From contig CAIRQX010000108.1 in NCBI GenBank assembly GCA_903880855.1, positions 1 to 38,743 on the forward strand: a stretch of DNA of 38,743 nucleotides, given 5' to 3'. The notes beneath the pieces were generated by a model. The model had not been told where the DNA came from. It saw nothing but the letters and a program-made list of their open reading frames with translations, and did not search any database. Each line of letters starts with the position of its first letter. Position 1 is the first letter of the stretch. Position numbers and translations under genes: made by a program. Of the stretch, positions 19,010 through 38,742 are shown one piece after another. Source of the stretch: an uncultured Burkholderiales bacterium. Lineage in GTDB: Bacteria > Pseudomonadota > Gammaproteobacteria > Burkholderiales > Burkholderiaceae_C.

Positions 19010-19765
19010 ATGGGATTGAGAGAAATACTGAAAGACTTGATAAATGCCGGAGGCACTGGCGGACTGAATTGGCATGTGCACGCCTTTCAATCCCAGAAAC
19101 GCTGGCAACCCACCGTTACACATATTGAACACTTTTTAATGCATTGCCAACCGCGCCACAAGCATTTGCTGTTGATGGGTTGCAGCGCAGGCTGGATGAT
19201 GCCCACCACATGGCTGGCCCAGTTCACGCAGATTGACGCTTACGACATCGACCCAATTGCACAACGCTTATTCAATTGGCGCCATGGTCGGGCACTGCGT
19301 CATAGCCAAACGCAAATTAGCCACCACCGGCAAGATGCGATGGCGCATTTACCCAAAATAATCGAAAAACATCCGCAAGCCAGCATCTGGTTTGACAATA
19401 TGTTGGGACAACACCGTTACCGCATTCGCGATGAAACGTTGGTAGGAAAAGAGCTTTGTGCGCTTAAAACTACCTTAACGGGACGCGATTGGGGTAGCGT
19501 GCATGACTTGCTGTCGGGCCCTACCCAACAAGTTGCGCGCTCACAAGATTCACGTATGCAAGATGTGTATCAAAGCGTGTTTCCACGCGATATGGGCGCC
19601 TCTTACAGCCAATCCTTGGTGCAAAGCTTGCAGGCTCAAGGGATCTGGTTTGACCATCTAACTTCACACGTATTTACAGACGATACCCCCACCACGCTTA
19701 TTCCCTGGGAATTCAAGCCACACTATTGGCATTGGTTACAAGCAGGGTGGCAATCACCCCTGTAA
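19010..19765 (+). CDS. SAM-dependent methyltransferase-like protein, inserted in the flagellar cluster
   Basis: 251 residues. A Rossmann-type motif I is suggested by HLLLMGCSAGWMMP (52-64), with Gly57 and Gly61, followed by the acidic strand end IDAYDIDPIAQ (75-85) that would hold the SAM ribose. A later WFDNMLGQ could be motif IV-like. The glycine motif is not the classic GxGxG, so catalytic activity is uncertain. It lies on the plus strand between fliJ and fliO, where fliK, fliL, fliM and fliN often are. The sequence just upstream shows no ribosome site. A substrate such as flagellin or a switch protein is speculation. Confidence 0.6.
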   Translation: MGLREILKDLINAGGTGGLNWHVHAFQSQKRWQPTVTHIEHFLMHCQPRHKHLLLMGCSAGWMMPTTWLAQFTQIDAYDIDPIAQRLFNWRHGRALRHSQTQISHHRQDAMAHLPKIIEKHPQASIWFDNMLGQHRYRIRDETLVGKELCALKTTLTGRDWGSVHDLLSGPTQQVARSQDSRMQDVYQSVFPRDMGASYSQSLVQSLQAQGIWFDHLTSHVFTDDTPTTLIPWEFKPHYWHWLQAGWQSPL

Positions 19766-19807: not shown

Positions 19808-20245
19808 TTACTTCATATTAAAAAGCATCACACCCGCAGCATCCATTTCACGTTGTTCGCGTTTAGCGGTGGCGTCTCTAATGCGTCTCTCATCTTGCTC
19901 TTGCAAAGTTTCCATTTGGATACGTTTTTTTTCTGCGGCTAGCAAATTACCCTTTAGAATATCTAACTCAAATTTAGCGTGCTGAAGGTCAATGTCAACA
20001 CGTTTGATCAAGGTTTGTATTTGCTGTAAAAAACCTCTGAAGTTCACTGTCTCTTGCATGTTGAGCGATTTTTTTTCTGTTTCTATTGATCGCGCTAGAT
20101 AGTCAGCATAAAGCACTTCCATACGACCGCGACTTTGCTCAAGGCTTTTAATTTTTTCACGGCCCTTGACCAATGCGGCCATTGCTTGGTCGCATTTTTC
20201 TTTGGCTTTTTTTGCCAAGATAGGCCAAGTTGCAAGGGGTTTCAT
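19808..20245 (-). CDS. fliJ: Flagellar export chaperone/ATPase stalk FliJ
   Basis: 145 residues, almost wholly helical: two long amphipathic helices forming the FliJ coiled coil (about 5-60 and 70-135). FliJ inserts into the FliI hexamer as a stalk and recycles export chaperones. Its start overlaps the fliI stop by four bases (ATGA). Low sequence conservation in the family means position is important to the call. It is the last minus-strand gene before the methyltransferase-like insert; the usual next gene fliK is missing. Confidence 0.85.
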   Translation of the reverse strand: MKPLATWPILAKKAKEKCDQAMAALVKGREKIKSLEQSRGRMEVLYADYLARSIETEKKSLNMQETVNFRGFLQQIQTLIKRVDIDLQHAKFELDILKGNLLAAEKKRIQMETLQEQDERRIRDATAKREQREMDAAGVMLFNMK

Positions 20246-21561
20246 GACACCAAGTGTTTGAGATTACCCAATGACACGTCATAGTCTTCGCTGATGTACA
20301 TGTCTTGTCGCAAGAACATCACCATTTGTTCACGCAGGCGAATCGCATCATCCAACTCTGGGTTGGTCCCAGCTTCATAGGCGCCTACTTGCACCAAGTC
20401 TGCATTTTGTTGGTAGACAGACCACAAGCGTCTAAACCGGTTGGCTTGTCGCATCGACTCGCTATCCACTATGGTTTGCATCACACGTGAAATAGAACCA
20501 TTCAAATCAATCGCAGGGTAATGCGCTTGGTCGGCCAATGTGCGCGACAGCATGACCTGTCCATCTAATGACGCACGGGCAATATCTACGATAGGGTCAG
20601 AAGCATCATCGCCTTCGGCAAGCACGGTATAGATAGATGTGATCGAGCCATGGCCATGTCTGCCAACGCCACCGCGTTCAATCAAATTAGGTAACAAGGC
20701 AAACACAGAGGGGGGATAGCCTTTGGCGGTAGGTGGTTCACCAATTGCCAAACCAATCTCGCGTTGCGCATGGGCCACACGCGTCAAGCTGTCGCACAGC
20801 ATCAACACGTTCAATCCTTTGTCACGGAAGTATTCTGCGACCACATGTGTCATATGGGTGGCTTTGAGTCGCAACACAGGCGACACGTTGGCAGGTGCGG
20901 CAATCACTACCGACTTTGCTAAGCCTTCGTCACCCAGTGATTCGCTGATAAACGCTTGCACTTCGCGGCCACGCTCACCGATCAAACCAATCACCACGAT
21001 GTCAGCTTTGGTGAATCGGGTCAGCATGCCTAGCAACACACTTTTGCCCACACCAGAACCGGCCACTAAACCAATCCGCTGGCCTCGTCCAACCGTCAAC
21101 ACGGAGTTGATGGCTTTCACGCCCACATCCAAAATGGAATTGATAGGGCCACGCTCCATAGGATTGAGCGGGCTGCCGAACAATGTCATTTGGTCTGGTA
21201 ATTCAGGTAAGGGGCGGCCATCTAAAGGTTTACCGCGACCATCAATCACTCGACCTAGCAAGCCATCGCCCAAACGCACTTGGTCTGAGTTGCGCATCAC
21301 TCGCACCATGTCACCAGGACCAACGCCCACAGGGTCTGTGAAGGGCATCAAATACAAAGTACGGTCGTTGAAACCGACTACCTCGGCTTCAATTCGGTGG
21401 CCGTGTTGACCTAAAACTTCACAACATGCACCTAAGGGTGCCATGATGCCGCGCGTCTCTAATGTCAAGCCCACCAAGCGCACCAAGGTGCCGCTACGTT
21501 GCGGATCTGGCACGCGCAATTGCTCAAGCGTGGTTTCTACTTCTTGCGCGAAATCAAGCAT
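20242..21561 (-). CDS. fliI: Flagellum-specific ATPase FliI
   Basis: 439 residues. FliI is the hexameric ATPase of the export apparatus, related to F1-beta. Walker A AGSGVGKS is at 167-174 with Lys173, and Walker B is VLMLCDSLTR near 255-264. GERGREV and the C-terminal domain are complete. The start is 18 bases after the FliF-tail-like gene, which sits between fliH and fliI where no gene is usual. Confidence 0.97.
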   Translation of the reverse strand: MLDFAQEVETTLEQLRVPDPQRSGTLVRLVGLTLETRGIMAPLGACCEVLGQHGHRIEAEVVGFNDRTLYLMPFTDPVGVGPGDMVRVMRNSDQVRLGDGLLGRVIDGRGKPLDGRPLPELPDQMTLFGSPLNPMERGPINSILDVGVKAINSVLTVGRGQRIGLVAGSGVGKSVLLGMLTRFTKADIVVIGLIGERGREVQAFISESLGDEGLAKSVVIAAPANVSPVLRLKATHMTHVVAEYFRDKGLNVLMLCDSLTRVAHAQREIGLAIGEPPTAKGYPPSVFALLPNLIERGGVGRHGHGSITSIYTVLAEGDDASDPIVDIARASLDGQVMLSRTLADQAHYPAIDLNGSISRVMQTIVDSESMRQANRFRRLWSVYQQNADLVQVGAYEAGTNPELDDAIRLREQMVMFLRQDMYISEDYDVSLGNLKHLVS

Positions 21562-21579: not shown

Positions 21580-22194
21580 TTATTGGGTTTGGATCATGCT
21601 GCGGATCACGCCAGCCACACGGCTTTGGTCGTTTTGCACCACCATGCGCACCACGCCTACTTTGTCTTCGTAGCTATTGGCGTTGTTAAGCAGTTCTGGT
21701 GGAATTGTCGGTTTTTTTGCCTTGGCTTGTTCGCGCTTCATGCGTTCTTTCACATCGGCCAATGATTCACCTTCTTGCATGACGATTTCAGTGCTTGCTG
21801 GTGCATCTGCAACAGAACCTTCTTCTGTTGTGAACCCATCTGCGATAGTAGAGCCCTCAACAACTTCCGTCGCTACCGCATCAGCTTCTATTTCGACTAC
21901 TTCTTCGTCTACTTCTGCTTGAAGATCGACCACAGGCGCTGGTTTGTGCTTAGGTTTATCTGGCACTTCCAAAAGTAATTTTTGAAAACGTATTTGGTCA
22001 TTGCGCTTAGCCTCAGCCAATATGCTGGCGCGAATCATTTCTTGCTGCACCTCTTCAATCGCCTCACTGTGCATATCCTCGTTGACCATTGCACCATCGA
22101 CAATATGCATCACAAACGGGCGTATCACGGTCACTATGATGACCATGAAAATCAACCCCATTAACAATGTATTGATGACGTCAGGAATGAACAT
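21580..22194 (-). CDS. FliF C-terminal-like membrane protein (second FliG-binding tail)
   Basis: 204 residues from ATG 22194, chosen for the strong GGGGAGG six bases upstream; the start overlaps the fliH stop by 14 bases. One membrane segment (about 5-27) ends in VIRPFV, like VVRPMV at the end of FliF's second membrane segment. A helical acidic linker follows (about 35-130). The last 70 residues (134-204) match the FliF tail of the same locus: in gap-free blocks 12 of 17 and 21 of 38 positions are identical by eye, including QEGESL, ANSY, DKV and RVAGV. In FliF this tail binds the N-terminal domain of FliG. The protein has no ring-building domains, so it looks like a shortened FliF paralogue. 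It may bind FliG, tie the ATPase complex to the MS ring or compete with FliF; these are inferences. Confidence 0.8.
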   Translation of the reverse strand: MFIPDVINTLLMGLIFMVIIVTVIRPFVMHIVDGAMVNEDMHSEAIEEVQQEMIRASILAEAKRNDQIRFQKLLLEVPDKPKHKPAPVVDLQAEVDEEVVEIEADAVATEVVEGSTIADGFTTEEGSVADAPASTEIVMQEGESLADVKERMKREQAKAKKPTIPPELLNNANSYEDKVGVVRMVVQNDQSRVAGVIRSMIQTQ

Positions 22195-23632
22195 CTTCTG
22201 CCTCCCCATCGTCTGTTTTAAGTTGCTCGTCTATGTCAGAAATTGGCTCAAACGATAGTTCTTCAGGCGCTTCTGGTGATGCTTCAGGAGAAGCTTCTTC
22301 AGAAAGCTCTATAGATGCCTCTTGAACTTCCGTTTCTGGATTTTTGTTAGCTTCAACGACTGGCTCCGCACGCGGCGCGATTTCTTTTAGCGCCAAACTT
22401 CTGGTTAATGCCTCAAGCCTGTTCTCAATCAAATCTTCGACCACCATATCGTTAGCAATCACGCGCACACTGCCAGACGCCAATTGCGGTACCGCTTCTA
22501 AGTGAACGCCTTGCAGACTAGCAGTAGTCAAGGTCTCGAGTAATTTTTTATCTTGGGGGTTGAGCTCTACAACCACCGCGCCTTTGATGGGGTGGTCTAG
22601 TTCGTTCAAACAGCTTTGTACCAAAGCGTCGATCGCTTGGGGCGAAATACTCAGCTCATGCTTGGCAATATGCTGGGCCATATTCAAGGCCAAGCGCTTC
22701 AATGGATTGAAGAAGCGTTGTGGGTCTTGCAGCAAATCATGCAAGCCTTCTGACACTTGCGAGAGCACCTCGCACTGGGTGGCTACTTCTTGCTCCATGG
22801 CTTCGCGAGCTTGACGTTCGCCCTGCTCTATGCCTTGGGCAATACCCTCTTCTAAGCCTTGTGCTTTGCCTTTTTCTAAGGCTTCTTGCACGGCTTCTTC
22901 TAGGCCTTGTCCTTTGCCTTCTTCAAGGCCTAAGGCCTTGCCTTCTTCTAATCCTTGCGCTTTGCCTGTTTCAAAGCCTTCAGCTTTGCCCTCTTCTTTT
23001 CCTTGGGCTAAACCTTTGGCGAACTGGGTCTCTTCACGTTGTACAACTTCTTCTAAAGGTATGCCTTTGGCTTCTGCTTGTACTTCAGGCCTTGCAACTT
23101 GTTCTTCTGTTTTTTGCTCAGCAGATTCAGCGGCTATGGCGTCTAAGGCTTCTTGCGTGGCTTCTAAGTGCGATTGCGCTGTTTTTGAATCATTCGTTCT
23201 ATTAGCAGATTCAGCAATGTCTCGATCATCTACAAATCGGCCAACACTTTTTCTGTCCAGCAAACCTTTAGCAAGCAGCACCTTGATGCGTCTTGCAGCT
23301 GCGTAATCGTCCATCACAAAGGGCAAATGCTCATTGACCGATGCGCTGGTTTTAGGAGCAGTCAAGTTGCTATCAAAGCTTGCTTGCGTTTCTTGTTCTT
23401 GTAACAAAGCCAATGACAGCCTGGCTTGTTCAGTCAGCGTTTGTGCGACCGATGTATAGGCATCGGTCGCAAAACCGTCCGGGTTTTCTGGATACGGTGC
23501 ATCCGCGTAATCTTCGCGTACATCCTCACCCCAAACCGTCGAGTCATATCCGACTTCGGATCGACGAAGGTGTAACTTTGAAGCGGGCTGCCATGGAATG
23601 GCTGACCGCGGCACGACTAATCGGTTATACAT
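22181..23632 (-). CDS. fliH: Flagellar export ATPase regulator FliH, unusually long
   Basis: 483 residues, about twice the ~230 of enteric FliH. FliH dimers hold FliI and dock it to the switch. A ladder of glycines spaced exactly four apart runs from 207 to 243 (ten in a row) and again 255-271, in motifs such as GKAQGLEEGKALG; GxxxG repeats of this kind are a known FliH feature. After it comes the conserved C-terminal part (about 300-415: HDLLQDPQRFFNPL, ALNMAQHIAKHE, LNPQDKK). The N-terminal ~200 residues and the acidic last ~70 are extra. The start overlaps fliG by eight bases. Confidence 0.88.
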   Translation of the reverse strand: MYNRLVVPRSAIPWQPASKLHLRRSEVGYDSTVWGEDVREDYADAPYPENPDGFATDAYTSVAQTLTEQARLSLALLQEQETQASFDSNLTAPKTSASVNEHLPFVMDDYAAARRIKVLLAKGLLDRKSVGRFVDDRDIAESANRTNDSKTAQSHLEATQEALDAIAAESAEQKTEEQVARPEVQAEAKGIPLEEVVQREETQFAKGLAQGKEEGKAEGFETGKAQGLEEGKALGLEEGKGQGLEEAVQEALEKGKAQGLEEGIAQGIEQGERQAREAMEQEVATQCEVLSQVSEGLHDLLQDPQRFFNPLKRLALNMAQHIAKHELSISPQAIDALVQSCLNELDHPIKGAVVVELNPQDKKLLETLTTASLQGVHLEAVPQLASGSVRVIANDMVVEDLIENRLEALTRSLALKEIAPRAEPVVEANKNPETEVQEASIELSEEASPEASPEAPEELSFEPISDIDEQLKTDDGEAEDVHS

Positions 23633-24659
23633 AGTCTCCGCCGCCTAACACCAATTCACCTGAGTCAGACAGTTGTCTGGCCATTCGCATGATTTTCTTT
23701 TGGGCTTCTTCCACATCGGACATGCGCTGTGGGCCTTTGGCCTCCATATCGTCGCGGAACATGCCACGGGCACGCTCAGACATATTATCAAAAAAGCGGG
23801 CTTGGGTTTCAGGGCTTGCGCCTTTCAAAGCCACCATCAACATGTCTGGCTCGACGGTACGCATGAGCACCTGAATACCTTTGTTGTTCACGCCCACCAA
23901 ACTCTCGAAGGTGAACATATTGTCTTGAATCTTGAGCATCAACTCGGGGTCAATTTCATTCAATCCGTTCATGATGCTCGATTCCAACGACGTCTTGGTC
24001 AAGTTCATAATTTTGGCTGCAGCTTCTACGCCACCAAAGCTGGAAGACTGTGACGATGCGCTCTTAGAGAACTGCATTTTCATGATACCTTCTAGTTCGG
24101 CCATAGCAGAAGGTTGCACCGTATCCAAACTTGCAACGCGCTGAATAATTTCAGCGCGAGGCTCAGGCGGCAGAAAATTCAATACATCGGCTGCCACGTT
24201 GGCTTCAAGCAAAGACAAGATGATTGCTACCACTTGTGGGTGCTCGGCCTTGATCATGTCTGCAATTCCACGGGCATCCATCCAAGTCAAAATGTCTAAG
24301 CCCTTGCTGGCTTGCCCAGGCATGATGCGATTTAAAACCGAGGCGGCTTTGTCATCGCCTAAAGCACGACGCATCACGTTTTCTACATAGTCGGTGCTGC
24401 CCATACTCAAAGACGATTGTTTCTTCAAGTGTTCGACAAATTCATCTAAAACGACGTTAACAGCTTCTTGCGAAAAGTCAGCTGCAGCCACCATCGCAGC
24501 ACCTAATGCTTGGACTTCTTTGGGATTTAAAAATTTAATGATGTCAGCCGCTTGTTCTTCGCCTAAGAGCAACATCAACACTGCCGCACGTTGGGTCGAG
24601 GTGATGTTGGACATCTCAGCACGCAGTGCTTCCGACATTCCCATATTAATATCAGCCAT
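23625..24659 (-). CDS. fliG: Flagellar motor switch protein FliG
   Basis: 344 residues, near the usual ~330. FliG links the MS ring to the C ring and generates torque with the stator. The N-terminal FliF-binding domain starts with STQRAAVLMLLLGEEQA; the middle domain has EHPQ at 139-142; the C-terminal torque domain has the charged helix around KGASPETQARFFDNMSERA. AGGAC precedes the ATG by about six bases. A second potential partner tail is encoded three genes downstream. Confidence 0.97.
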   Translation of the reverse strand: MADINMGMSEALRAEMSNITSTQRAAVLMLLLGEEQAADIIKFLNPKEVQALGAAMVAAADFSQEAVNVVLDEFVEHLKKQSSLSMGSTDYVENVMRRALGDDKAASVLNRIMPGQASKGLDILTWMDARGIADMIKAEHPQVVAIILSLLEANVAADVLNFLPPEPRAEIIQRVASLDTVQPSAMAELEGIMKMQFSKSASSQSSSFGGVEAAAKIMNLTKTSLESSIMNGLNEIDPELMLKIQDNMFTFESLVGVNNKGIQVLMRTVEPDMLMVALKGASPETQARFFDNMSERARGMFRDDMEAKGPQRMSDVEEAQKKIMRMARQLSDSGELVLGGGDYV

Positions 24660-24689: not shown

Positions 24690-26756
24690 TTATTGACGGA
24701 TCAAGCTCTTGAGAACGCCAGCCACGCGGGTAGAGTCTTCAGACACGATCATACGAATCAGAGCAACTTTGTCATCATACGAGTTGGCGGTGTTGAGTAA
24801 ATCAGCAGAAATTGACTGCTTCTTAGGCTTCATGGCGGCCATACGGGCTTTCACTTCGTCTAAAGATTCACCTTCTTGAATTTCAATTTCTGCTGAAGCC
24901 TCACCGGCAGCTGGGTTCAGTGCGGCTAAGGCATCGGCTTCGGCTTTGGCGGCCGCTGCGATTCGTGCTTCTTCTGACAGGCGTGCGGCTTCTTGCGCAG
25001 CCAACATCGCCTGTTCGGCTAGTCTTGCAATCTCAGCTTCGTGAGCTTCACGGGCTTGTTGGGCTGAGAGTTTTGCTGCCGCAGCTTCTGCCGTTGCCAC
25101 TTCAATCGCCATCTTGGCTTCAGCATTAGCGGCCTCGGCAGCAACAGCTGCCAAATCGGCGGGGCGCACATCTGGTGTTGTGAGTCTTCGCACCATGGGT
25201 CGAACCACTAGTAACAAGATGAGTAAAAAGATAGTTCCCACTACGCCTGCATTGACCATCACTTGGTAGTTTTCATCACGGTACCAAGGAATGATCGATG
25301 GATCGAACTGTGGCTCGAACTTAGTTGCCACCACAGTCACAACGTCACCACGTGTTTCGTTAAATCCGACCGCGCCTTTGACCAATTGGTTCAAGCGGTC
25401 TAATTCTTCAGGCGTGTAAGCAATAGATGTCGGCGGCGCAGAGCCATCGGCAGGTTTTTCAATTTTGGTACCAGCGGGTATCGGCCGCTCATTGATCAAC
25501 ACACCCACACCGATTTTAGTGATCGTGCCCATCGCACCTTTGGTGTGACGCACTGAGCGGTCGAGTTCATAGTTCTTCGTACTACGTGCAGTCACTTGCA
25601 CGCCCTTCTCGCTGACGCCTTTTAAGGGGTCAGAGTTCGATTGGGTTGTGGCCTGTGGGTTGTTCTGTGCTGGTGGCGTATTGGCCAACGAGCCAGGTAA
25701 ACCAATCGCATCACGCAAGGTGTTGCGGTCTTCTACGAACAACTCAGAACGGGTCTTGGGGCCTTTGTCTTGTGAGTCAAAGTCTTCAGTAGTAATTTCG
25801 GTTTGGGTAAAGTCCAACGTCATGCTGACTTGTGCGCTGACATTCGATTCACCAACGATAGGTGCTAACAATTGGATCAGACGCGTACGATAGAGGTCTT
25901 CCATCTGCTGCTTTTGTGTCAACTGTGCTGACGTCAAGCCCAAAGGTTGCTCAACCAACATTTCGTTCATCAAGCTGCCAAAGTTGTCGACTACAGAGAC
26001 ATTCTCTGGCGCCAAATAAGGAACACTAGACGCTACCAATTGAATAATCGCTTGCACATTGGCGGCAGAAATCGTGCGGCCAGGCAAGCGGGTGATGATC
26101 ACAGAAGCCTTGGTAGGCGCTCGGTCGCGCACAAACACACTTTGTTTGGGTGCGGCCAAATGCACGCGGGCAGATTTGATACCGCCAATTTGCACAATGC
26201 TGCGTGAAAGCTCTTGTTCCATCGCATTGTTGTAGCGCACCTGCTCCATAAACTGGCTAGTGGTCATCGCGGGCATGTCTTTGAGGTTTTCCATGCCAGA
26301 GACTTCAGTGCGCGGCAAACCTTTAGAAGCCAACAACATGCGGGCTTCTTGGTAGCGGGAGGTAGGAACAGACAGCTGGCCGGTAGAAGGATCCACCTCT
26401 GGTTTGAAGTCTGCGGTTTTGAGGGTTTCGATCGCTATTTGCTTGTCTGCATCATTGAGCATCAACACCAAAGGACGGTATGGGGTTGGCTTCATCGAAG
26501 TGAAAAATACCGCGACTGACATCAGCAGCATAAAGATCACCATGAATGGCAATGCTTTGCGCACACTGGGTTGGCGCAACACGTCCATCACCAAAGCGCC
26601 AGGGCCTTCTTTGGAATTAATCCATGTAGGCAATTTTGAGCCCTCTGCTTTGAGAGCAGAGCCTGTGGCATTGCTCGCGCCAGCAGCGGCAGCGTTATCA
26701 GATGCCTGCCCCGAGGGCAAGGTCATCGCGTTCATATTGAGAGTGTCTGTAGCCAT
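24690..26756 (-). CDS. fliF: Flagellar MS-ring protein FliF
   Basis: 688 residues, longer than the ~550 of enteric FliF. It forms the membrane ring that seeds the basal body. Membrane segments lie at about 68-86 and 500-518; between them are the ring-building motifs (NAMEQELSRSI, VHLAAPKQSVFVRD, APENVSVVDNFG). The extra length is in the cytoplasmic part: about 90 residues of Ala/Glu-rich helix (530-620, with AKMAIEVATAEAAAAKL) stand between the second membrane segment and the FliG-binding tail at 622-688. That tail is shared with the separate protein at 21580-22194. It begins 20 bases after the fliE stop. Confidence 0.97.
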   Translation of the reverse strand: MATDTLNMNAMTLPSGQASDNAAAAGASNATGSALKAEGSKLPTWINSKEGPGALVMDVLRQPSVRKALPFMVIFMLLMSVAVFFTSMKPTPYRPLVLMLNDADKQIAIETLKTADFKPEVDPSTGQLSVPTSRYQEARMLLASKGLPRTEVSGMENLKDMPAMTTSQFMEQVRYNNAMEQELSRSIVQIGGIKSARVHLAAPKQSVFVRDRAPTKASVIITRLPGRTISAANVQAIIQLVASSVPYLAPENVSVVDNFGSLMNEMLVEQPLGLTSAQLTQKQQMEDLYRTRLIQLLAPIVGESNVSAQVSMTLDFTQTEITTEDFDSQDKGPKTRSELFVEDRNTLRDAIGLPGSLANTPPAQNNPQATTQSNSDPLKGVSEKGVQVTARSTKNYELDRSVRHTKGAMGTITKIGVGVLINERPIPAGTKIEKPADGSAPPTSIAYTPEELDRLNQLVKGAVGFNETRGDVVTVVATKFEPQFDPSIIPWYRDENYQVMVNAGVVGTIFLLILLLVVRPMVRRLTTPDVRPADLAAVAAEAANAEAKMAIEVATAEAAAAKLSAQQAREAHEAEIARLAEQAMLAAQEAARLSEEARIAAAAKAEADALAALNPAAGEASAEIEIQEGESLDEVKARMAAMKPKKQSISADLLNTANSYDDKVALIRMIVSEDSTRVAGVLKSLIRQ

Positions 26757-28995: not shown

Positions 28996-31900
28996 TTAGT
29001 TACCCAACAACTTCAAGACTGACTGTTGGCTGGTGTTCGCTTGCGCCAACACCGCTGTTGCTGCTTGCTGCATGATTTGGGTTTTGGCCAATTCAGTTGA
29101 AGAAGAAGCGTAGTCTGCGTCTTCGATCTGGCTGCGTGAAGAAGACATATTCATAGACACGTTGGTCAAGTTGTTGATCACATGGTCTAAACGGTTCATC
29201 ACAGCACCCATGGTGGCACGGGTTGCGTTGACTTTGTCCATCGCCTCATCCAGCAAGTTCAAAACTGCTGTTGCACCATCACGTGTGTTAATTCGCACAC
29301 CACGGTCTTCCACAGACTTATCGACGTCACCAGTTATTTCACCAGTTATAGGGCCGCCCTTACCGAAGTCAGCCAAGTCGATTGTCACCATTTGTCTAGC
29401 AGACGAACCTACTTGGAATGCTAAACGACCAACACGAGGTGGATCCATATCCGAACTAGAACGACCACCGAAGGTGCCAACTGAAAAACCCAAGTCGGAG
29501 AAATTGCTGGCTAAGCTGAATCCATCATCACCAACATTGATGCTGATAGGCTTACCAGAAACGCCTGTCAAATTTGGAGCCTTGTCATCTGTTGATGGCA
29601 AACCTGGCAAATGTGCTGGATCGGCGATCATTCGGACCGTTCCATAAACTGTCCGTGCTTCGCTAGATGATTCACTAGCTCCGACAACTCCCGTTATTTG
29701 GTTACTACCAAAACTGTTTTCTTGCACAGTTCCCATAGATACGGTCTGCTGGTAGTCGGAAGCCGAGGCTCCAAACATATCAAAAGGGGATCCAGGGATT
29801 TTTGATTGCACAAGAACTACCGTTGGATCATTAGGATCTAAATAAGCAATCAAATTGCTCATATGCGTTCTTTCTGAAGGTAAGGTAGTTGGGTCACCAT
29901 CTAGAAGAATACTGTCAGAAATCGCAGTATTGATTGCCGTTAAAAGAGCAGTTGCCATTTGGCCAGCATCTGAAACGTTTAGTGTGGGGTCGGTTGTTAT
30001 CGTTGTTCCATTAATTTGAACAGAAACTGTGTCACCTAAAGTAAAGCTTGCAGCAGTAGATCCTATTTTCACCATAGAGATTTGACTAACGGCATTGCCC
30101 TCATCTAAGCCAAAGCTACCAGGCGATAAACCTTCAATACTTGCGTCATACCAGACAGACACATTTCTACCGTCTTGCGCCTCGAGAGTCAGCCCCTTGC
30201 CATTATCTATAGCAGCAATGCCATGCGTTCCGCTGTAAGTATTTATTGCTTTGACTAGGTTTAGTCTACGATCAGCAGGAGTGTCATCCTTCTTGAACTC
30301 GACCTTAATTTGAGTACCGTTGATGTAAAGCGATTGGATACCAATTGGTTCGTTAACTGGCTTAATTGTATTTGGCGCCTCATCCCAAGTCGCCAACTTA
30401 GTGGTGCCGGTGGTAGTTGAATTACCTTTTAAGACGACAGGGTTTGCAATCGCTCGAACACCCGTCTCAGGGGTATGAGTGTTAATCGCATTAGCCATTG
30501 CAATTGCGCTTGCTGAAGAATTACTACTACTAGCAATCTGGTTGGAATAAATATCATCCGCCGAATTTGTAGCGCGAATTTTTATACCATTAATTTCAAG
30601 ATCATCTGCTCCTAGAGACTTGAATGCAGATATCTTATTTTCAACAACGGTTTTCACAGACGAAAACTCGGCTGTCGAACCAGTAGCAGGCAACATTGCA
30701 GTAGCTGCAGTAAATGAACGACCTGGGGTTTTAGCGCGTATTATGAATTCACCAACGGTGTTTCCAGCTAAGACTTCAACGTTTTGGTCGTTATCGTTCT
30801 CAAACTGAGTAACCATTGCGTCACGCAATCCTTGAGCGCTTTTTTGAGTATCTGTTGCACCAACTGGAACTTCAACTCTATGCTCTGTTCCATTAACTAT
30901 AAGAGTAAATACATCTCCCACTGTTGCTGGGCCAATGAATGAAGCACTATTAATTTGCTTCACAGAAGGATCCACCAGAGGGCGCTCTTTAGTGTTAACA
31001 ACAGCTTGGTTTTTGCTGTAATTACCTTCAAGCAAACCAACCCTAGAAATATCACCAACAGCGGAGCTTGTTAAAACTACAGCATTTGGAATTTTTGATT
31101 CCAATGAGATTGTTGAGCTCTGTACGCCCTCTCGCATACCAATACGATTTCCAAAATCGCTAGCGATAGATGTTGTTTCGAAAGTCACCTCAATATTACG
31201 GCCATCAGCTGCTTTTAGAGTAACTCCAAGTTGATCTGAACCAGTATCTTCAGCGATGACGCCTGTTTTGTCACTGATTAAATTGATAGCACGTACTACA
31301 TTGGCGCGAGTGTCGCGCGGGTTATTCATCAAAGTATCAATCTTTGCAGATGCATATCCATTGATAAAGACAACGCCAGATACCACTGAATTTCCACTCA
31401 TGGATTTTCCAGTAAATATGTTTTCATTCACCTTGGCGAATACGCCAGTTCCAGTTGACGAAGAACTAAAACGTCGAGTTGTATCGGTAATGCTGGTCAA
31501 ATTGGTATCACGCTGCTGAACATCGATGGAGCTAACCTCACCATCAGTGACTGGGAAGTCAACGTTAACGATTGTGCTTCCGGGCGCATAAGTAACTTTT
31601 CGTCCTGAGCCCTCACCAAACTGGGCACTTTGTCTCATACTCGCTGCAATCTTAGCTGTAGCCAATGCAGGCGTATTTTCCATAGCCGTCAATTCAACAC
31701 TAACCCCGCCCACAGTAATCACTCCAGGGATTGGGTTGCCAGAAAATGTGACAGACTGGGACTCGCCTACTGGCCCACTTCCCACAGAAGCTTTACGGTT
31801 GATCGCTGCTGCCTTAGCAATTGCTGATCCATTTGCGTTATTGATAGGTGAATAAGGATCGTCAGTTGCAAAAGAGCCACCGATTTCGACACCGTTGATC

Positions 31901-33174
31901 AATAAATCTCCAGCTCGCATAGCAGGTATGCTGCCTGAAACATCGACCGAGATTTTGAATTTTCGTTGTTCCAAATCAACTGGCCCAGAAGGCACCGCCG
32001 CGTCAAATGGAAGACCAGACGAATCTTTTAGTGTGTATGTAAGGTTGTCAGAAATTATTGTGCTGTTTATACCATCTCTGACTAAAAATTTAACTTTACC
32101 CGTAGATACTTCATAAGTACCAGTTAAATTTACGCTCTTATTATCAGGAGTTGTAAATACTGCTTTTATGTCTAGCGAGCCATCGTTATTTGTATCAGTA
32201 TGTTCAATTACCAAGTTACCACTTCGCAAGAAGCGGCCATTGGCATCAAACATTTCTTGTGTTTGAATGACAGCGTTACGCGTCACTTCTAAATTATCTA
32301 CTTTGAAGAAACCACTGTTGGATGCATCAACCCATTGAACGCTTGGCACATCACCATCTTTTGCAGCATATGTCAAAATTATGTCGGTACCATCTATCTC
32401 AACTTTTCTGCCAGATCCTGAACCAAATCGATCCGTTGATTCCAATTGCTGCTTAATTTGTGTCAGAAATTTTGCAGGGTCTGTAACATCGTCTGTGTTA
32501 TCCGTTGGTGTTGCATTGTCATCTTTTATGGTGTCCCACTGCAATTTAATGGTCTCGTCCGCAAATTTAAATGTGCGAATACCAGTAAATCCTTGAACAG
32601 CATCAACACCAGTAAAGTCAAAGGAAATAGTCTGTTGTTCACCAGCGCCGCCGCCCTCAATTACTCGCGTGGTTGTGGGGTTTAACAAAACATCGCCGAA
32701 TTGATTATTCGAAGTGGCTTTGTAAACAGGCATTTCACCCACTTGTTCACCGGCCTTACCATTTAATACTGGAAAGCCATTCCATTCTGTGTTGTCAGCA
32801 ATTTGAACTATCTGCTGCTTAAGTTGCTGGAATTCCAAATCCAAATAACTTCTTTGTGCATTGTCATTTGTATCGTTGACAGCTTGAATAGCCAACTCAC
32901 GCATACGCTGCATCATGTCAGTAATTTCGTTGGTCGCACCCTCAGCGGTTTGAATCAAAGAGATGGCATCGCCCGCATTTCGCACGGCTTGATTCAAGCT
33001 GCGGATCTGGTGGGTCATGCGTGTAGCGATTGCCATACCGGCTGCATCATCTCTTGCCGAGTTGATGCGTTTGCCCGTAGACAACTGCTGCATTGCAATC
33101 GCTTGTGCACGGCCAGATGTGTTTAAAGCCATCTGTGAAAACAATGCCTTGACGTTAGTATTAATAACTGCCAT
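28996..33174 (-). CDS. fliC: Giant flagellin (1392 residues)
   Basis: The filament subunit, secreted through the flagellar exporter. Residues 1-138 are a complete D0/D1 N-terminus (AVINTNVKALFSQMALN, MQRMRELAIQAVNDTNDNAQ) and 1300-1392 a complete C-terminus (NRLDHVINNLTNV, IEDADYASSSTELAKTQI, VLKLLGN). The ~1160 residues between are surface domains built from related Flagellin_IN-like modules, several in pairs: 179-285 with 471-556, 423-459 with 858-898, 604-665 with 951-1009, and 752-825 with 1046-1136. No cysteine is present, as usual for flagellins. Most flagellins are 270-600 residues. AGGAG lies seven bases before the ATG. The middle is AT-richer than the ends. Giant flagellins giving thick filaments are known in other bacteria; thickness here is inference. 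Confidence 0.96.
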   Translation of the reverse strand: MAVINTNVKALFSQMALNTSGRAQAIAMQQLSTGKRINSARDDAAGMAIATRMTHQIRSLNQAVRNAGDAISLIQTAEGATNEITDMMQRMRELAIQAVNDTNDNAQRSYLDLEFQQLKQQIVQIADNTEWNGFPVLNGKAGEQVGEMPVYKATSNNQFGDVLLNPTTTRVIEGGGAGEQQTISFDFTGVDAVQGFTGIRTFKFADETIKLQWDTIKDDNATPTDNTDDVTDPAKFLTQIKQQLESTDRFGSGSGRKVEIDGTDIILTYAAKDGDVPSVQWVDASNSGFFKVDNLEVTRNAVIQTQEMFDANGRFLRSGNLVIEHTDTNNDGSLDIKAVFTTPDNKSVNLTGTYEVSTGKVKFLVRDGINSTIISDNLTYTLKDSSGLPFDAAVPSGPVDLEQRKFKISVDVSGSIPAMRAGDLLINGVEIGGSFATDDPYSPINNANGSAIAKAAAINRKASVGSGPVGESQSVTFSGNPIPGVITVGGVSVELTAMENTPALATAKIAASMRQSAQFGEGSGRKVTYAPGSTIVNVDFPVTDGEVSSIDVQQRDTNLTSITDTTRRFSSSSTGTGVFAKVNENIFTGKSMSGNSVVSGVVFINGYASAKIDTLMNNPRDTRANVVRAINLISDKTGVIAEDTGSDQLGVTLKAADGRNIEVTFETTSIASDFGNRIGMREGVQSSTISLESKIPNAVVLTSSAVGDISRVGLLEGNYSKNQAVVNTKERPLVDPSVKQINSASFIGPATVGDVFTLIVNGTEHRVEVPVGATDTQKSAQGLRDAMVTQFENDNDQNVEVLAGNTVGEFIIRAKTPGRSFTAATAMLPATGSTAEFSSVKTVVENKISAFKSLGADDLEINGIKIRATNSADDIYSNQIASSSNSSASAIAMANAINTHTPETGVRAIANPVVLKGNSTTTGTTKLATWDEAPNTIKPVNEPIGIQSLYINGTQIKVEFKKDDTPADRRLNLVKAINTYSGTHGIAAIDNGKGLTLEAQDGRNVSVWYDASIEGLSPGSFGLDEGNAVSQISMVKIGSTAASFTLGDTVSVQINGTTITTDPTLNVSDAGQMATALLTAINTAISDSILLDGDPTTLPSERTHMSNLIAYLDPNDPTVVLVQSKIPGSPFDMFGASASDYQQTVSMGTVQENSFGSNQITGVVGASESSSEARTVYGTVRMIADPAHLPGLPSTDDKAPNLTGVSGKPISINVGDDGFSLASNFSDLGFSVGTFGGRSSSDMDPPRVGRLAFQVGSSARQMVTIDLADFGKGGPITGEITGDVDKSVEDRGVRINTRDGATAVLNLLDEAMDKVNATRATMGAVMNRLDHVINNLTNVSMNMSSSRSQIEDADYASSSTELAKTQIMQQAATAVLAQANTSQQSVLKLLGN

Positions 33175-34067: not shown

Positions 34068-35801
34068 ATGACAATGGAACTAGCCGCACTTTTCACCAAA
34101 TGCGAACAACTACAACAATCAGGCAAATCTGATGAGGCTATAAGTACTTATAAGTCTTGGCTGAATACTTCTAAAGATTCAAACCGATATATGGGTTGGT
34201 TTAATTATGGATCTTTGTTGCAATCGACCGGCAATACTTTGGAAGCGGTAGCAGCTTATAAAGAGTGCCTGAAGGTTCAATCACGATTCCCCCAAGCCCT
34301 GATAAATCTCGGGCTAACTCTTGAGAAACTAGGGAATCGTGACGAGGCATTACAACAATGGGCCTCACTTGTGAGCCAGCGCTATTTGCAAGATCCCCCG
34401 CCATCGGACATGGTGACTATGGCTCTTAACCATATTGGCCGAGTACAAGAGGAGCTAAAACTATATGACCTAGCAGAACAAGCGCTGGAAGAAAGTTTAA
34501 CCATCAACCCAAAGCAGCCCCCCGCTTTACAACATTGGGTTCATATACGCCAAAAATCTTGTTCGTGGCCAGTCTTCAAAACTTTGCCTAATATCACTCG
34601 AAATGAGATGCTTATGGCAACATCGCCTCTGGCAATGTTGGCCTTGACAGATGATCCCGTGCAGCAACTGCTAACTTGTTTTGCATTTGTAGAACGAACC
34701 TACAGCTTTAAACAAGAAAATTTAAGTCAAGATCGCAAATACAACCATGAGCGATTGAGAATTGGTTTTGTCTCAGGAGATTTATGTGTTCATGCCGTAG
34801 GCTTGCTTTTAGCGGAATTTTTAGAAGGACTAGACCGCAACAAGAATGAAATTGTGGGTTACGACTTTAGTCCTGAAGATGGAACTCCTCATAGAGAAAG
34901 ACTAAAAAAGGCCTTTGACCAGATTCGTTCAGTACATTCCCTAAATGACAGACAAGTCGCAGAGCAAGTATTAGTTGATGAAATTGATGTATTGATAGAT
35001 CTGCATGGACTGAGCTCAGGCGCTAGACCTGGAATATTTGCTCTGCACCCTGCACCTAAACAAGGTATTTACCTTGGTTTTATAGGAACCACAGGAATGC
35101 CTTGGTATGACTTTGTTATTTCAGACCCATATGCGTTACCAGAGGAGCTAACAACTCACTTCACAGAAAAACCGCTTTATATACAAGGTAGTTTTATTCC
35201 GATCACGCATGATAAAACTCCCATTCGAGAGGCCTCTCGTAGCGAATTTGGTATAAAAGAAGACTCATTTGTGATGGCTGCGTTCGGTAATGTTTATAAA
35301 ATTACGCCTGAAATGTTCTCAACCTGGATGGGTCTTTTAAAAGACATACCAAATTCAATTCTGTGGATCATTGACGACAACCCAACCACCACCAAAAATC
35401 TCAAAACCCAAGCTGCTTTAGCCAAAGCTGATATCAGCAGGATTCAATTTACACCCCGATCAGCGCATCTTGAATACAAAGCCAAGCTTAAGTTGGCTGA
35501 TGTGTTTTTAGACACTTTCCCATACAACTGTGGTTCAACCACCAATGATGTTTTGAATGCTGGCGTTCCCATAGTAACTATTAGTGGGAAATCATTAGTT
35601 TCTCGAATGGGAGGGAGTATTCTTAAAGCAATCAAAATGGAATCTCTTATTTGTAAAAACATGATCGAATATTCGGAGAAAGTAATTTCACTGGCTAAGC
35701 AGCCAATTTCAAAAAAACAGAACTTCAAGTTCGAATGGCCATTAAATATTGCAAATTCATTAGAGTCGGAATTGCAATTGTTAGTTAGTAAAAAAGACTA
35801 A
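34068..35801 (+). CDS. OGT/SPINDLY-like protein glycosyltransferase (GT41) with N-terminal TPRs
   Basis: 577 residues. TPR repeats occupy about 1-160 (WFNYGSLLQSTGNTLEAVAAYKECL is followed by the next repeat AQALINLGLTLEKLGN-like). The GT41 catalytic part is about 222-560: RIGFVSGDLCVHAV, then HGLSSGARPG, YLGFIGTTGMPWYDF, FGNVYKITPEMFSTWMGLL with the lysine in the position of the UDP-binding lysine of OGT, and ADVFLDTFPYNCGSTTNDVL. These enzymes transfer a sugar, GlcNAc in eukaryotes, to Ser/Thr. AAAGGA is five bases before the ATG. It stands next to the flagellin locus and 6 bases ahead of a GT92 gene, so flagellin is a plausible target. The gene is AT-rich compared with the flagellar genes. 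Confidence 0.85.
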   Translation: MTMELAALFTKCEQLQQSGKSDEAISTYKSWLNTSKDSNRYMGWFNYGSLLQSTGNTLEAVAAYKECLKVQSRFPQALINLGLTLEKLGNRDEALQQWASLVSQRYLQDPPPSDMVTMALNHIGRVQEELKLYDLAEQALEESLTINPKQPPALQHWVHIRQKSCSWPVFKTLPNITRNEMLMATSPLAMLALTDDPVQQLLTCFAFVERTYSFKQENLSQDRKYNHERLRIGFVSGDLCVHAVGLLLAEFLEGLDRNKNEIVGYDFSPEDGTPHRERLKKAFDQIRSVHSLNDRQVAEQVLVDEIDVLIDLHGLSSGARPGIFALHPAPKQGIYLGFIGTTGMPWYDFVISDPYALPEELTTHFTEKPLYIQGSFIPITHDKTPIREASRSEFGIKEDSFVMAAFGNVYKITPEMFSTWMGLLKDIPNSILWIIDDNPTTTKNLKTQAALAKADISRIQFTPRSAHLEYKAKLKLADVFLDTFPYNCGSTTNDVLNAGVPIVTISGKSLVSRMGGSILKAIKMESLICKNMIEYSEKVISLAKQPISKKQNFKFEWPLNIANSLESELQLLVSKKD

Positions 35802-35807
35802 ATAAGC

Positions 35808-36620
35808 ATGCATTTAGGAATATGCACCATTCAACGAGATCGAGCAAAATGGCTTGCTGAATGGGTAGCATTTCATTACGTTGTAGGCTTCAGGAAGTTT
35901 TTCATTTATTTACATAAATGTAATGACCACTCTTCAGATGTAGTACTTTCTTTAAAGAAATTCTTTGATATTGAATGTTTCACCATTCCTGATGAAACAC
36001 AACGACCACAGCTCATAAGCTACCAACATGCATATAACGAGTTTGGACACACAGTTGATTGGATGGCATTTATAGACGGAGACGAGTTTTTATTTCCGAC
36101 TGCAAAAAAAAATATCTCAGAAGTACTTAAGGATTTTCATTACGAAAAACTCTCAGCCCTGGGTGTTTGGTGGTCATGTTTTGGAAGTAGCCACCATATC
36201 AAAGAACCAGAGGGTTTAATAATTGACAACTACAAATTTAGATCTTCTATCGATTTCGAGGCAAATCGGCACATCAAAAGTATAGTCAGAGGCCATCAAG
36301 GATCGAATTTTTCTGTGTCACAAAATGCCCATATATTTAATACTATTTATGGAACTTATGACGAAAATATGCGACTAATAGATGCCGGTTTTATGCCTGA
36401 ACTAGAACCCACCTACTTAGAACTTCGAATCAATCATTACGTATGTCAGAGCTTTGAATTTTTCAAAAATTTCAAACAAAACAGCGGTGCAGCGGATGCA
36501 GGGCCACTTGCGGTTCGTTCTGATGAGTGGTGGGTTAAACACAATCGCAACGAAGTAGAAGACGATTCGATTACAAAATTTCGGCCACAGCTGCTTGAAG
36601 TTTTAAAAGAAATAAATTAA
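35808..36620 (+). CDS. GT92-like (DUF23) glycosyltransferase
   Basis: 270 residues, no membrane segment. The N-terminus LGICTIQRDRAKWLAEWVAFHYVVGFRKFFIY matches GT92 proteins in having an Asn/Gln-Glu-Trp-type start, here cited for positions 3-34. The metal/nucleotide motif FIDGDEFLF is at 89-96 (Asp90, Asp92). Late motifs are INHYVCQSFEFFKNFK. It lies six bases after the GT41-like gene and three bases before the next, so the three form an operon. Together they may build a glycan on a protein or lipid; the sugar is unknown. Confidence 0.78.
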   Translation: MHLGICTIQRDRAKWLAEWVAFHYVVGFRKFFIYLHKCNDHSSDVVLSLKKFFDIECFTIPDETQRPQLISYQHAYNEFGHTVDWMAFIDGDEFLFPTAKKNISEVLKDFHYEKLSALGVWWSCFGSSHHIKEPEGLIIDNYKFRSSIDFEANRHIKSIVRGHQGSNFSVSQNAHIFNTIYGTYDENMRLIDAGFMPELEPTYLELRINHYVCQSFEFFKNFKQNSGAADAGPLAVRSDEWWVKHNRNEVEDDSITKFRPQLLEVLKEIN

Positions 36621-38250: not shown

Positions 38251-38742
38251 TTAACTAGATAGCAAAGCTGATATTTGACTACTTGTCATTGCAGTCAATT
38301 GGTTTGATGTTAAAGCGTTCACTTGGTCCGTTGAAAAAACTGCTAATTGAGAATTTTTTAGTGCTTGTATTTGCGCGGTCGTGATAGAAGCAATATCAAC
38401 AGTTTCTAAATATGGAATTTGAATAGTTGTCAAGGCGCCCAACTGTGAAGTCTGAAGATTACTCACTTGCTCTGTCGTCAAAGCAACCACTTGGTCTGTT
38501 GTCAGCGCAGCAATTTGCTTGGTTAATAGAGAAGCCACTTGATTCGTAGTCAGAATAGCAAGATCTCCCGTCTCCATCGCCGCAATCTGCTTATTCGTCA
38601 TGGCAACCAACTGCGAAGTCTGCAGATTACTCACCTGCTCCGTCGTCAGAGCAACCACTTGATCTGTTGTCAGCGCAGCAATTTGCTTGGTCAATAGAGA
38701 AGCCACTTGGCTTGTAGTCAACACAGCAAGATCTCCCGTCTC
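38251..38742 (-). CDS. Octapeptide-repeat protein, N-terminal part beyond the window
   Basis: 164 codons up to the right edge, with the frame open, so only the C-terminus is seen. A GTG at 38724 is inside the repeat and is not the likely start. The whole visible part is made of eight-residue units with the pattern L-T-T-x-Q-[VIL]-x-[ASN], for example LTTDQVVA, LTTEQVSN and LLTKQIAA. A higher unit of seven octapeptides (56 residues) repeats: the block beginning ETGDLA recurs 168 bases apart. The repeats become more diverse and stop with no extra domain at the C-terminus (SSQISALLSS). Such long repeat proteins usually are surface or secreted adhesin-like proteins or solenoids; that is inference. 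Confidence 0.75.
   Translation of the reverse strand, partial: ETGDLAVLTTSQVASLLTKQIAALTTDQVVALTTEQVSNLQTSQLVAMTNKQIAAMETGDLAILTTNQVASLLTKQIAALTTDQVVALTTEQVSNLQTSQLGALTTIQIPYLETVDIASITTAQIQALKNSQLAVFSTDQVNALTSNQLTAMTSSQISALLSS

Follow-up and report, generated by a model that had tools for sequence, protein, structure and literature searches.

A ring-less FliF paralogue encoded between fliH and fliI in Limnohabitans, a candidate second dock for FliG

The FliF-FliG contact templates the flagellar rotor and transmits its torque, and is usually treated as one-to-one. What role, then, could be played by a protein that repeats only FliF's half of this contact and is encoded by a gene of its own between fliH and fliI? 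The question is raised by the window, the whole stretch of 38,743 nucleotides analysed here, which comes from a 2.8 Mb genome of an uncultured Burkholderiales bacterium. The original prediction, which named no strand, placed a separate small gene at this site, and an open reading frame of 204 amino acids, here called FTL, does run there on the minus strand from 22194 to 21580. The gene and its neighbours are arranged as follows.

20242..21561, minus strand: fliI (Pfam and NCBIfam matches)
21580..22194, minus strand: the FTL gene, 204 amino acids plus stop codon (open reading frame and FliF match; the conserved N-terminus and the GGAG of relatives support the start codon)
22181..23632, minus strand: fliH, long form, 483 amino acids (PF02108, E 4.7e-9), overlapping the FTL start by 14 bases
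22201..22207, minus strand: GGGGAGG, the ribosome-binding site of FTL, within the end of fliH (sequence, and the GGAG of relatives)
23625..24659, minus strand: fliG (Pfam match), the presumed partner of FTL
24690..26756, minus strand: fliF, 688 amino acids, the full-length paralogue of FTL (Pfam and NCBIfam matches)

The 14-base overlap with fliH and the strong ribosome site that had been predicted are both present, with GGGGAGG preceding the ATG and its GGAG core ending seven bases ahead of it. The same arrangement recurs in 22 of 22 FTL loci examined, each of which has an ATG start, a GGAG motif 6-9 bases from it, and an overlap with the upstream reading frame of 8, 14 or 17 bases. An alternative start at 22209 (MGRQK...) was rejected, because the extra residues are unconserved and the GGAG motif serves 22194. 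The upstream FliH has a long N-terminal region before its PF02108 match, which covers residues 308-408 of 483.

Several other reading frames of the window were noted, all but the last of them by eye. A methyltransferase-like frame (19010-19765, plus strand) lies between fliJ and fliO, on the strand opposite to theirs, and a flagellin-like frame of 1392 residues (28996-33174, minus strand) has a very long central region. Adjoining the flagellin region, 34068-36620 (plus strand) holds a TPR protein resembling an O-GlcNAc-type glycosyltransferase and a second glycosyltransferase-like frame, which are possibly flagellin glycosylation genes. The window ends with a frame of repeated LTTxQVxAL-like units (38251-38724, minus strand).

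The kinship of FTL with FliF is clearest in its tail. The last 70 residues of FTL align with the C-terminus of the window's FliF with 39 of 70 positions identical, 52 of 70 similar and two gap positions (BLASTP, E 5e-20 in a single comparison), and the Smith-Waterman score of FTL against FliF is 220, against a mean of 42.6, a standard deviation of 6.6 and a maximum of 76 for 1000 shuffles of FTL. Of the identities first counted by eye, 12 of 17 proved right, while 21 of 38 was one short, the recount giving 22 of 38. Additionally, an alignment of 22 tails with FTL and FliF rows contains four invariant and nine near-invariant positions, all of which are kept in the window's FTL.

The membrane segment had likewise been read as a repeat of the second membrane segment of FliF (TM2), and profile comparison agrees (hhalign, P 6.1e-10, probability 96.6). 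Sixteen other membrane segments, taken as controls from FliF TM1, FliP, FliQ, FliR and FlhB, gave P 0.03-0.62 with the same FTL helix; their alignments had 1 to 20 rows, most of them fewer than the TM2 alignment, some controls thus being weaker profiles. As single sequences, the first 34 residues of FTL score 56 against FliF TM2, and the maximum of 1000 shuffles is 48. The first profile test contained at least one misplaced row (L055) and had dropped five of 47 FliF frames; its repetition with a separate 20-row alignment agrees with it. The profile match to the C-terminal half of FliF is therefore strong over both the membrane helix and the tail.

The ring-building domains are absent from FTL, also as predicted, with no match to YscJ_FliF, YscJ_FliF_C or TIGR00206 at E up to 1. 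The window's FliF carries both PF01514 and PF08345, neither of which is found in FTL at E up to 1, and reaches 240 bits with the full-length FliF model TIGR00206, which FTL does not match. Pfam and NCBIfam named no family in FTL, the best E values of 0.077 and 0.064 being at chance level. A sequence search of the PDB gave no match for FTL and no significant one for the tail profile (best E 0.096), so that neither has a direct sequence match to the solved FliF/FliG structures. Since TM2 and the tail both match and the ring domains are missing, FTL is a stand-alone C-terminal part of FliF from TM2 on. It is a ring-less FliF paralogue, composed of TM2, a cytoplasmic linker and the C-terminal helices, without TM1 and the periplasmic ring-building domains, and, given the absence of those domains, is unlikely to assemble rings itself. 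The parts of FTL and their counterparts in FliF are listed here.

22108..22173, minus strand: FTL membrane helix, about residues 8-29, with the V-I-R-P boundary motif at its end (hhalign against FliF TM2)
21940..22095, minus strand: FTL juxtamembrane cytoplasmic segment, residues 34-85 (AlphaFold helix 3-75; conservation)
21793..21939, minus strand: FTL acidic linker, residues 86-134 (AlphaFold, composition)
21583..21792, minus strand: FTL tail of the FliF, FliG-binding type, residues 135-204 (identity with FliF, AlphaFold helices, dN/dS)
25197..25262, minus strand: FliF TM2, about residues 499-520, ending in VVRP, homologue of the FTL membrane helix
24696..24899, minus strand: FliF C-terminal FliG-binding tail, residues 620-687 (BLASTP with FTL; weak tail-profile matches elsewhere)

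The AlphaFold model of FTL, of low overall confidence (mean pLDDT 67, pTM 0.23), has one continuous helix over residues 3-75, a low-confidence linker, and tail helices at 145-159, 166-171 and 175-203. Foldseek found no fold match for this model at E 0.001, as is expected for long helices. The linker is acidic, as had been noted, with 14 D/E and no K/R, and is probably disordered according to the model, while the juxtamembrane segment is predicted to be mostly helix running on from the membrane helix. FTL thus resembles the C-terminal half of FliF in its membrane helix with the V-R-P boundary, its cytoplasmic linker and its tail, but differs from FliF in lacking TM1 and the periplasmic domains, in having its own gene between fliH and fliI, and in its own juxtamembrane segment, which is conserved in the main clade and has no recognisable kinship to FliF.

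The gene is retained throughout the genus. A profile built from 22 FTL sequences was run against 84 genomes of the genus, in which fliI was searched for at E up to 1e-100. fliI is present in 72 of the 84, and FTL in 71 of these 72, four of them with a partial copy at a contig end (G401, G414, G431, G448). In 70 of the 71, FTL and fliI share contig and strand, with 2-46 bases between the end of the FTL match and fliI, which follows it; in the other, G475, the two are on different contigs and fliI is cut. The sole fliI-bearing genome without an FTL match, G381, has its fliI truncated by the contig edge. The profile found no FTL in any of the 12 genus genomes without fliI, among them G422 (73% complete), in which a FliF match lies at a contig edge. 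In G433 and G460 we also noted a second, distant FliI (49% identical) and FliG (26-30%), together with FlhF above cut-off, and these two genomes probably carry a second flagellar system.

Among loci from contigs of named genomes, 20 of 21 have FTL between fliH and fliI, the exception being L033, from an Oxalobacteraceae MAG, with no FTL between these genes. Two isolates and a MAG of Limnohabitans are among the FTL matches. One of these isolates (L020) has an FTL identical to that of L004 (G184, of the window's genus), which points to Limnohabitans as the genus of the window. The survey between fliH and fliI that the original prediction proposed across Burkholderiales thus finds the gene conserved and not decaying across this genus, but not Burkholderiales-wide at this site. 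FTL at this gene position is a genus-level trait of Limnohabitans, within the sensitivity of the search. Neither outcome that the original prediction had named as refuting it, a missing profile match to the FliF C-terminus or decay in relatives, was observed, and its interpretation is supported.

Selection has acted unevenly along the protein. Across 13 sequence pairs, hand-picked out of 231 and with some synonymous rates near saturation, the tail has dN of 0.006-0.135 and dN/dS of 0.007-0.12, and the linker has dN of 0.16-0.96. Mean pairwise identity among 17 main-clade sequences is 80% in the membrane part, 54% in the juxtamembrane segment, 30% in the linker and 81% in the tail. Purifying selection acts on the membrane helix and on the tail, and the linker drifts. 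In our reading, the conservation of the membrane part would exceed what a generic anchor needs, and selection indicates that FTL is a real, conserved and functional gene.

Outside the genus, FTL was found in none of 393 genomes of the family (399 in all, six of the same genus), by a search that prefilters by shared words, which a strongly diverged FTL may escape. Tail matches in 13 family genomes of other genera were set aside, 12 lying in frames of 613-653 amino acids, as FliF, and the 84-residue frame of G037 being the end of a FliF that lies at a contig edge, with fliG coming next; five of these 13 FliF loci were verified by tblastn. Nor was FTL found near fliI (E 1e-3) in 28 outside loci, drawn from the 79 genomes outside the genus in which fliI was matched, the 28 including the four with FliI most similar to the window's (70-77% identical). 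Among 274 genomes of the class, besides the window's own, the tail profile gave six weak matches (E 4e-6 to 9e-4), all FliF C-termini as judged by frame length in five cases and by sequence in one.

Comparable tails do occur on other proteins of the order, as 300 of its genomes include four more with a second FliF-type tail. In one family (f47), a FliF match of the tail-profile type is present in 5 of 74 genomes. Three of these, from three genera (G733, G789, G810), have a frame with one hydrophobic segment, a linker and a FliF tail, like FTL; unlike FTL, it lies between fliF and fliG, and a quick tree places it with the FliF of its own family. The fourth (G832; L129:1440-1600) has the FliF tail a second time, in decayed form, straight after fliF, and the fifth (G827) has no second tail.

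In another family (f18), the tail matches in 15 of 26 genomes, of which the 10 with FliF all also have a second tail protein, weak and broken in one (G835), and five, 70-92% complete, have the second tail protein only and no FliF. These proteins share with FTL the C-terminal FliF-type tail, but differ from it in having two hydrophobic segments (genus g261) or four to five of them (genus g158) and in lying outside the flagellar cluster. Flanks of up to about 1.5 kb at the 15 loci contain no match to FliG, FliH or FliI, and none to FliF beyond its C-terminal part; L145, L149 and L152 (G620, G715, G744) are examples of such FliF-tail membrane proteins away from the flagellar cluster. Against FliF TM2, the membrane part of g158 shows no relation (P 0.099) and that of g261 a doubtful one (P 1.3e-4, probability 54), and a common origin of the two membrane parts reaches only P 0.004-0.013. 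The g261 proteins also carry YPDGR-type repeats. The Oxalobacteraceae MAG has, right after fliF, a short frame of 74 residues (L033:4809-5030, plus strand) that carries a FliF-type tail and in which inspection by eye shows no membrane helix.

A tail-only tree of 66 columns and 88 rows grouped the FTL rows apart from the FliF rows, with the long L033 row joining FTL, and set each of the f47 and f18 proteins next to its own family's FliF, with few firm branches. This tree omits 13 rows without the membrane motif (the L128 copy being restored), two duplicate f47 copies, the broken f18 copy (L154) and three short gammaproteobacterial FliF ends, and identical rows were collapsed. In an earlier tree of 67 tails, FTL formed one branch (ultrafast bootstrap 88) with the L033 row elsewhere. 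AU tests rejected none of four single-origin groupings, with p of 0.48 for FTL as one clade, 0.28 for FTL with the f47 copies and 0.45 for the f18 proteins. The tail-only proteins likely arose several times.

Regarding function, FTL very probably binds FliG, since its tail corresponds to the part of FliF that does so. FliF-C is reported to wrap the FliG-D1 domain (PMC11087270), and FliF-FliG binding to be required for flagellar assembly (PMC8786727). The window's genome has a single FliG match at E up to 1e-10, so that FTL and FliF must share this FliG. As there is one FliG only and the tail retains its conserved positions, we consider it highly probable that FTL has its N-terminus outside and its tail in the cytoplasm, and that this tail binds the same FliG domain as FliF does.

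Based on these findings, we tentatively propose, as the best explanation, that FTL is a ring-less FliF paralogue acting as a supplementary FliG dock. With somewhat greater reserve, we picture it inserted beside the MS ring, where FliG subunits left without a partner would find one of the FliF type, so that the FliG ring could form or stay complete even with more FliG than FliF. The conserved membrane helix would pack on that part of the basal body which lies in the membrane, with the acidic linker providing FTL's reach. The Salmonella motor has been modelled with 33 FliF to 34 FliG, a ratio that need not be 1:1 (PMC11087270), and a supplementary dock would fit such a model. However, the passages of PMC11087270 that describe this mismatch name no FTL-like protein in Salmonella, the C-ring of C. 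jejuni is reported to be widened via a wider MS ring (PMC12222027), and the FliG copy number of E. coli to be restricted by 34 FliF (PMC10128058). The proposal would therefore conflict with the view of FliF as the template of C-ring size.

FTL may serve either as a permanent second rotor anchor or as an assembly tether, two readings that lie close together, and we rank both above a link to FliH-FliI and above a competitor. As an assembly tether, which is possible though rather unlikely, FTL would catch free FliG at the membrane, stabilise its N-terminal domain before FliF is reached, hand it over during MS-ring formation and be absent from the finished motor, in which it would resemble FlhF of polar flagella or small accessory proteins of the membrane like SwrB. 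Shewanella FlhF is reported to bind FliG and take it to FliF at the pole, FliG being stable in a foreign host only with FlhF (PMC11236974). FlhF is thus, like FTL by prediction, a second FliG-binding factor besides FliF, but it is described as an SRP-type GTPase that binds mainly the M and C domains of FliG (PMC11236974), whereas FTL has a FliF-type tail for the N-terminal domain. The best full-length FlhF match in the window's genome reaches 115 bits against a cut-off of 174, and the FlhF model, which matches 84 of 84 genus genomes and 14 of 14 controls through related GTPases, exceeds its cut-off in 2 of the 84. Bacillus subtilis, the organism of SwrB, belongs to a different phylum. Its SwrB is, like FTL, a membrane-bound accessory, and by reported genetics promotes an early FliF-dependent step of basal-body formation, but the parallel is only partial, as SwrB is reported to act independently of FliG (PMC4526659). 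The f18 tails, carried on other membrane proteins with no flagellar gene in the fetched flanks, would also suit a membrane catcher. The membrane helix of FTL, however, is highly conserved and derived from FliF, which a simple catcher would not need, and for this reason the permanent dock is preferred over the tether.

Carrying the FliF tail but lacking the ring domains, FTL would compete with FliF for the same FliG, and could in this way act as a limiter, occupying FliG so that fewer FliF rings are nucleated and thereby setting flagellar number. We regard this as improbable, as FTL lies in the FliF/FliG gene run and is kept in 71 of 72 fliI-bearing genomes, which is more in keeping with a required part than with a brake, and Pfam and NCBIfam give it no regulatory domain. 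Slightly less probable again is a bridge from the export ATPase complex to the motor, in which the juxtamembrane segment would hold FliH or FliI and the tail would hold FliG. The position between fliH and fliI with its conserved overlap would suit such a bridge, as would a conserved cytoplasmic segment without recognisable FliF origin, but gene position is the sole direct hint, and the f47 equivalents lie between fliF and fliG, not beside fliH. A recent non-functional partial duplication, of which one f47 genome (G832) does hold a decayed fragment, has a negligible chance here, being contradicted by the genus-wide retention, the low dN/dS, and the start, GGAG motif and overlap that are intact in 22 of 22 loci.

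Titles, abstracts and index terms of the open-licence PMC literature yielded no account of a FliF paralogue lacking the ring domains, and a search of that literature for Limnohabitans and FliF together found nothing. Returning to FTL as a supplementary dock, a wider and more doubtful idea is that rotor attachment may be split, with FliF setting the ring and FTL adding docks, so that the number of FliG, and with it the C-ring, is uncoupled from that of FliF; tail-only anchors of this kind would have been invented more than once in Burkholderiales, through FliF fission and the grafting of tails onto membrane proteins.

A conserved protein with only FliF's half of the FliG contact would provide a natural test of whether the number of FliG is separable from that of FliF, and also of how FliG reaches the membrane. 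As Limnohabitans isolates are among the matches, cultivable strains should exist for such tests. The recurrence of tail-only proteins in other Burkholderiales, with differing membrane parts, makes them look like a repeated solution to one problem of assembly or architecture, and they may serve as ready natural experiments.
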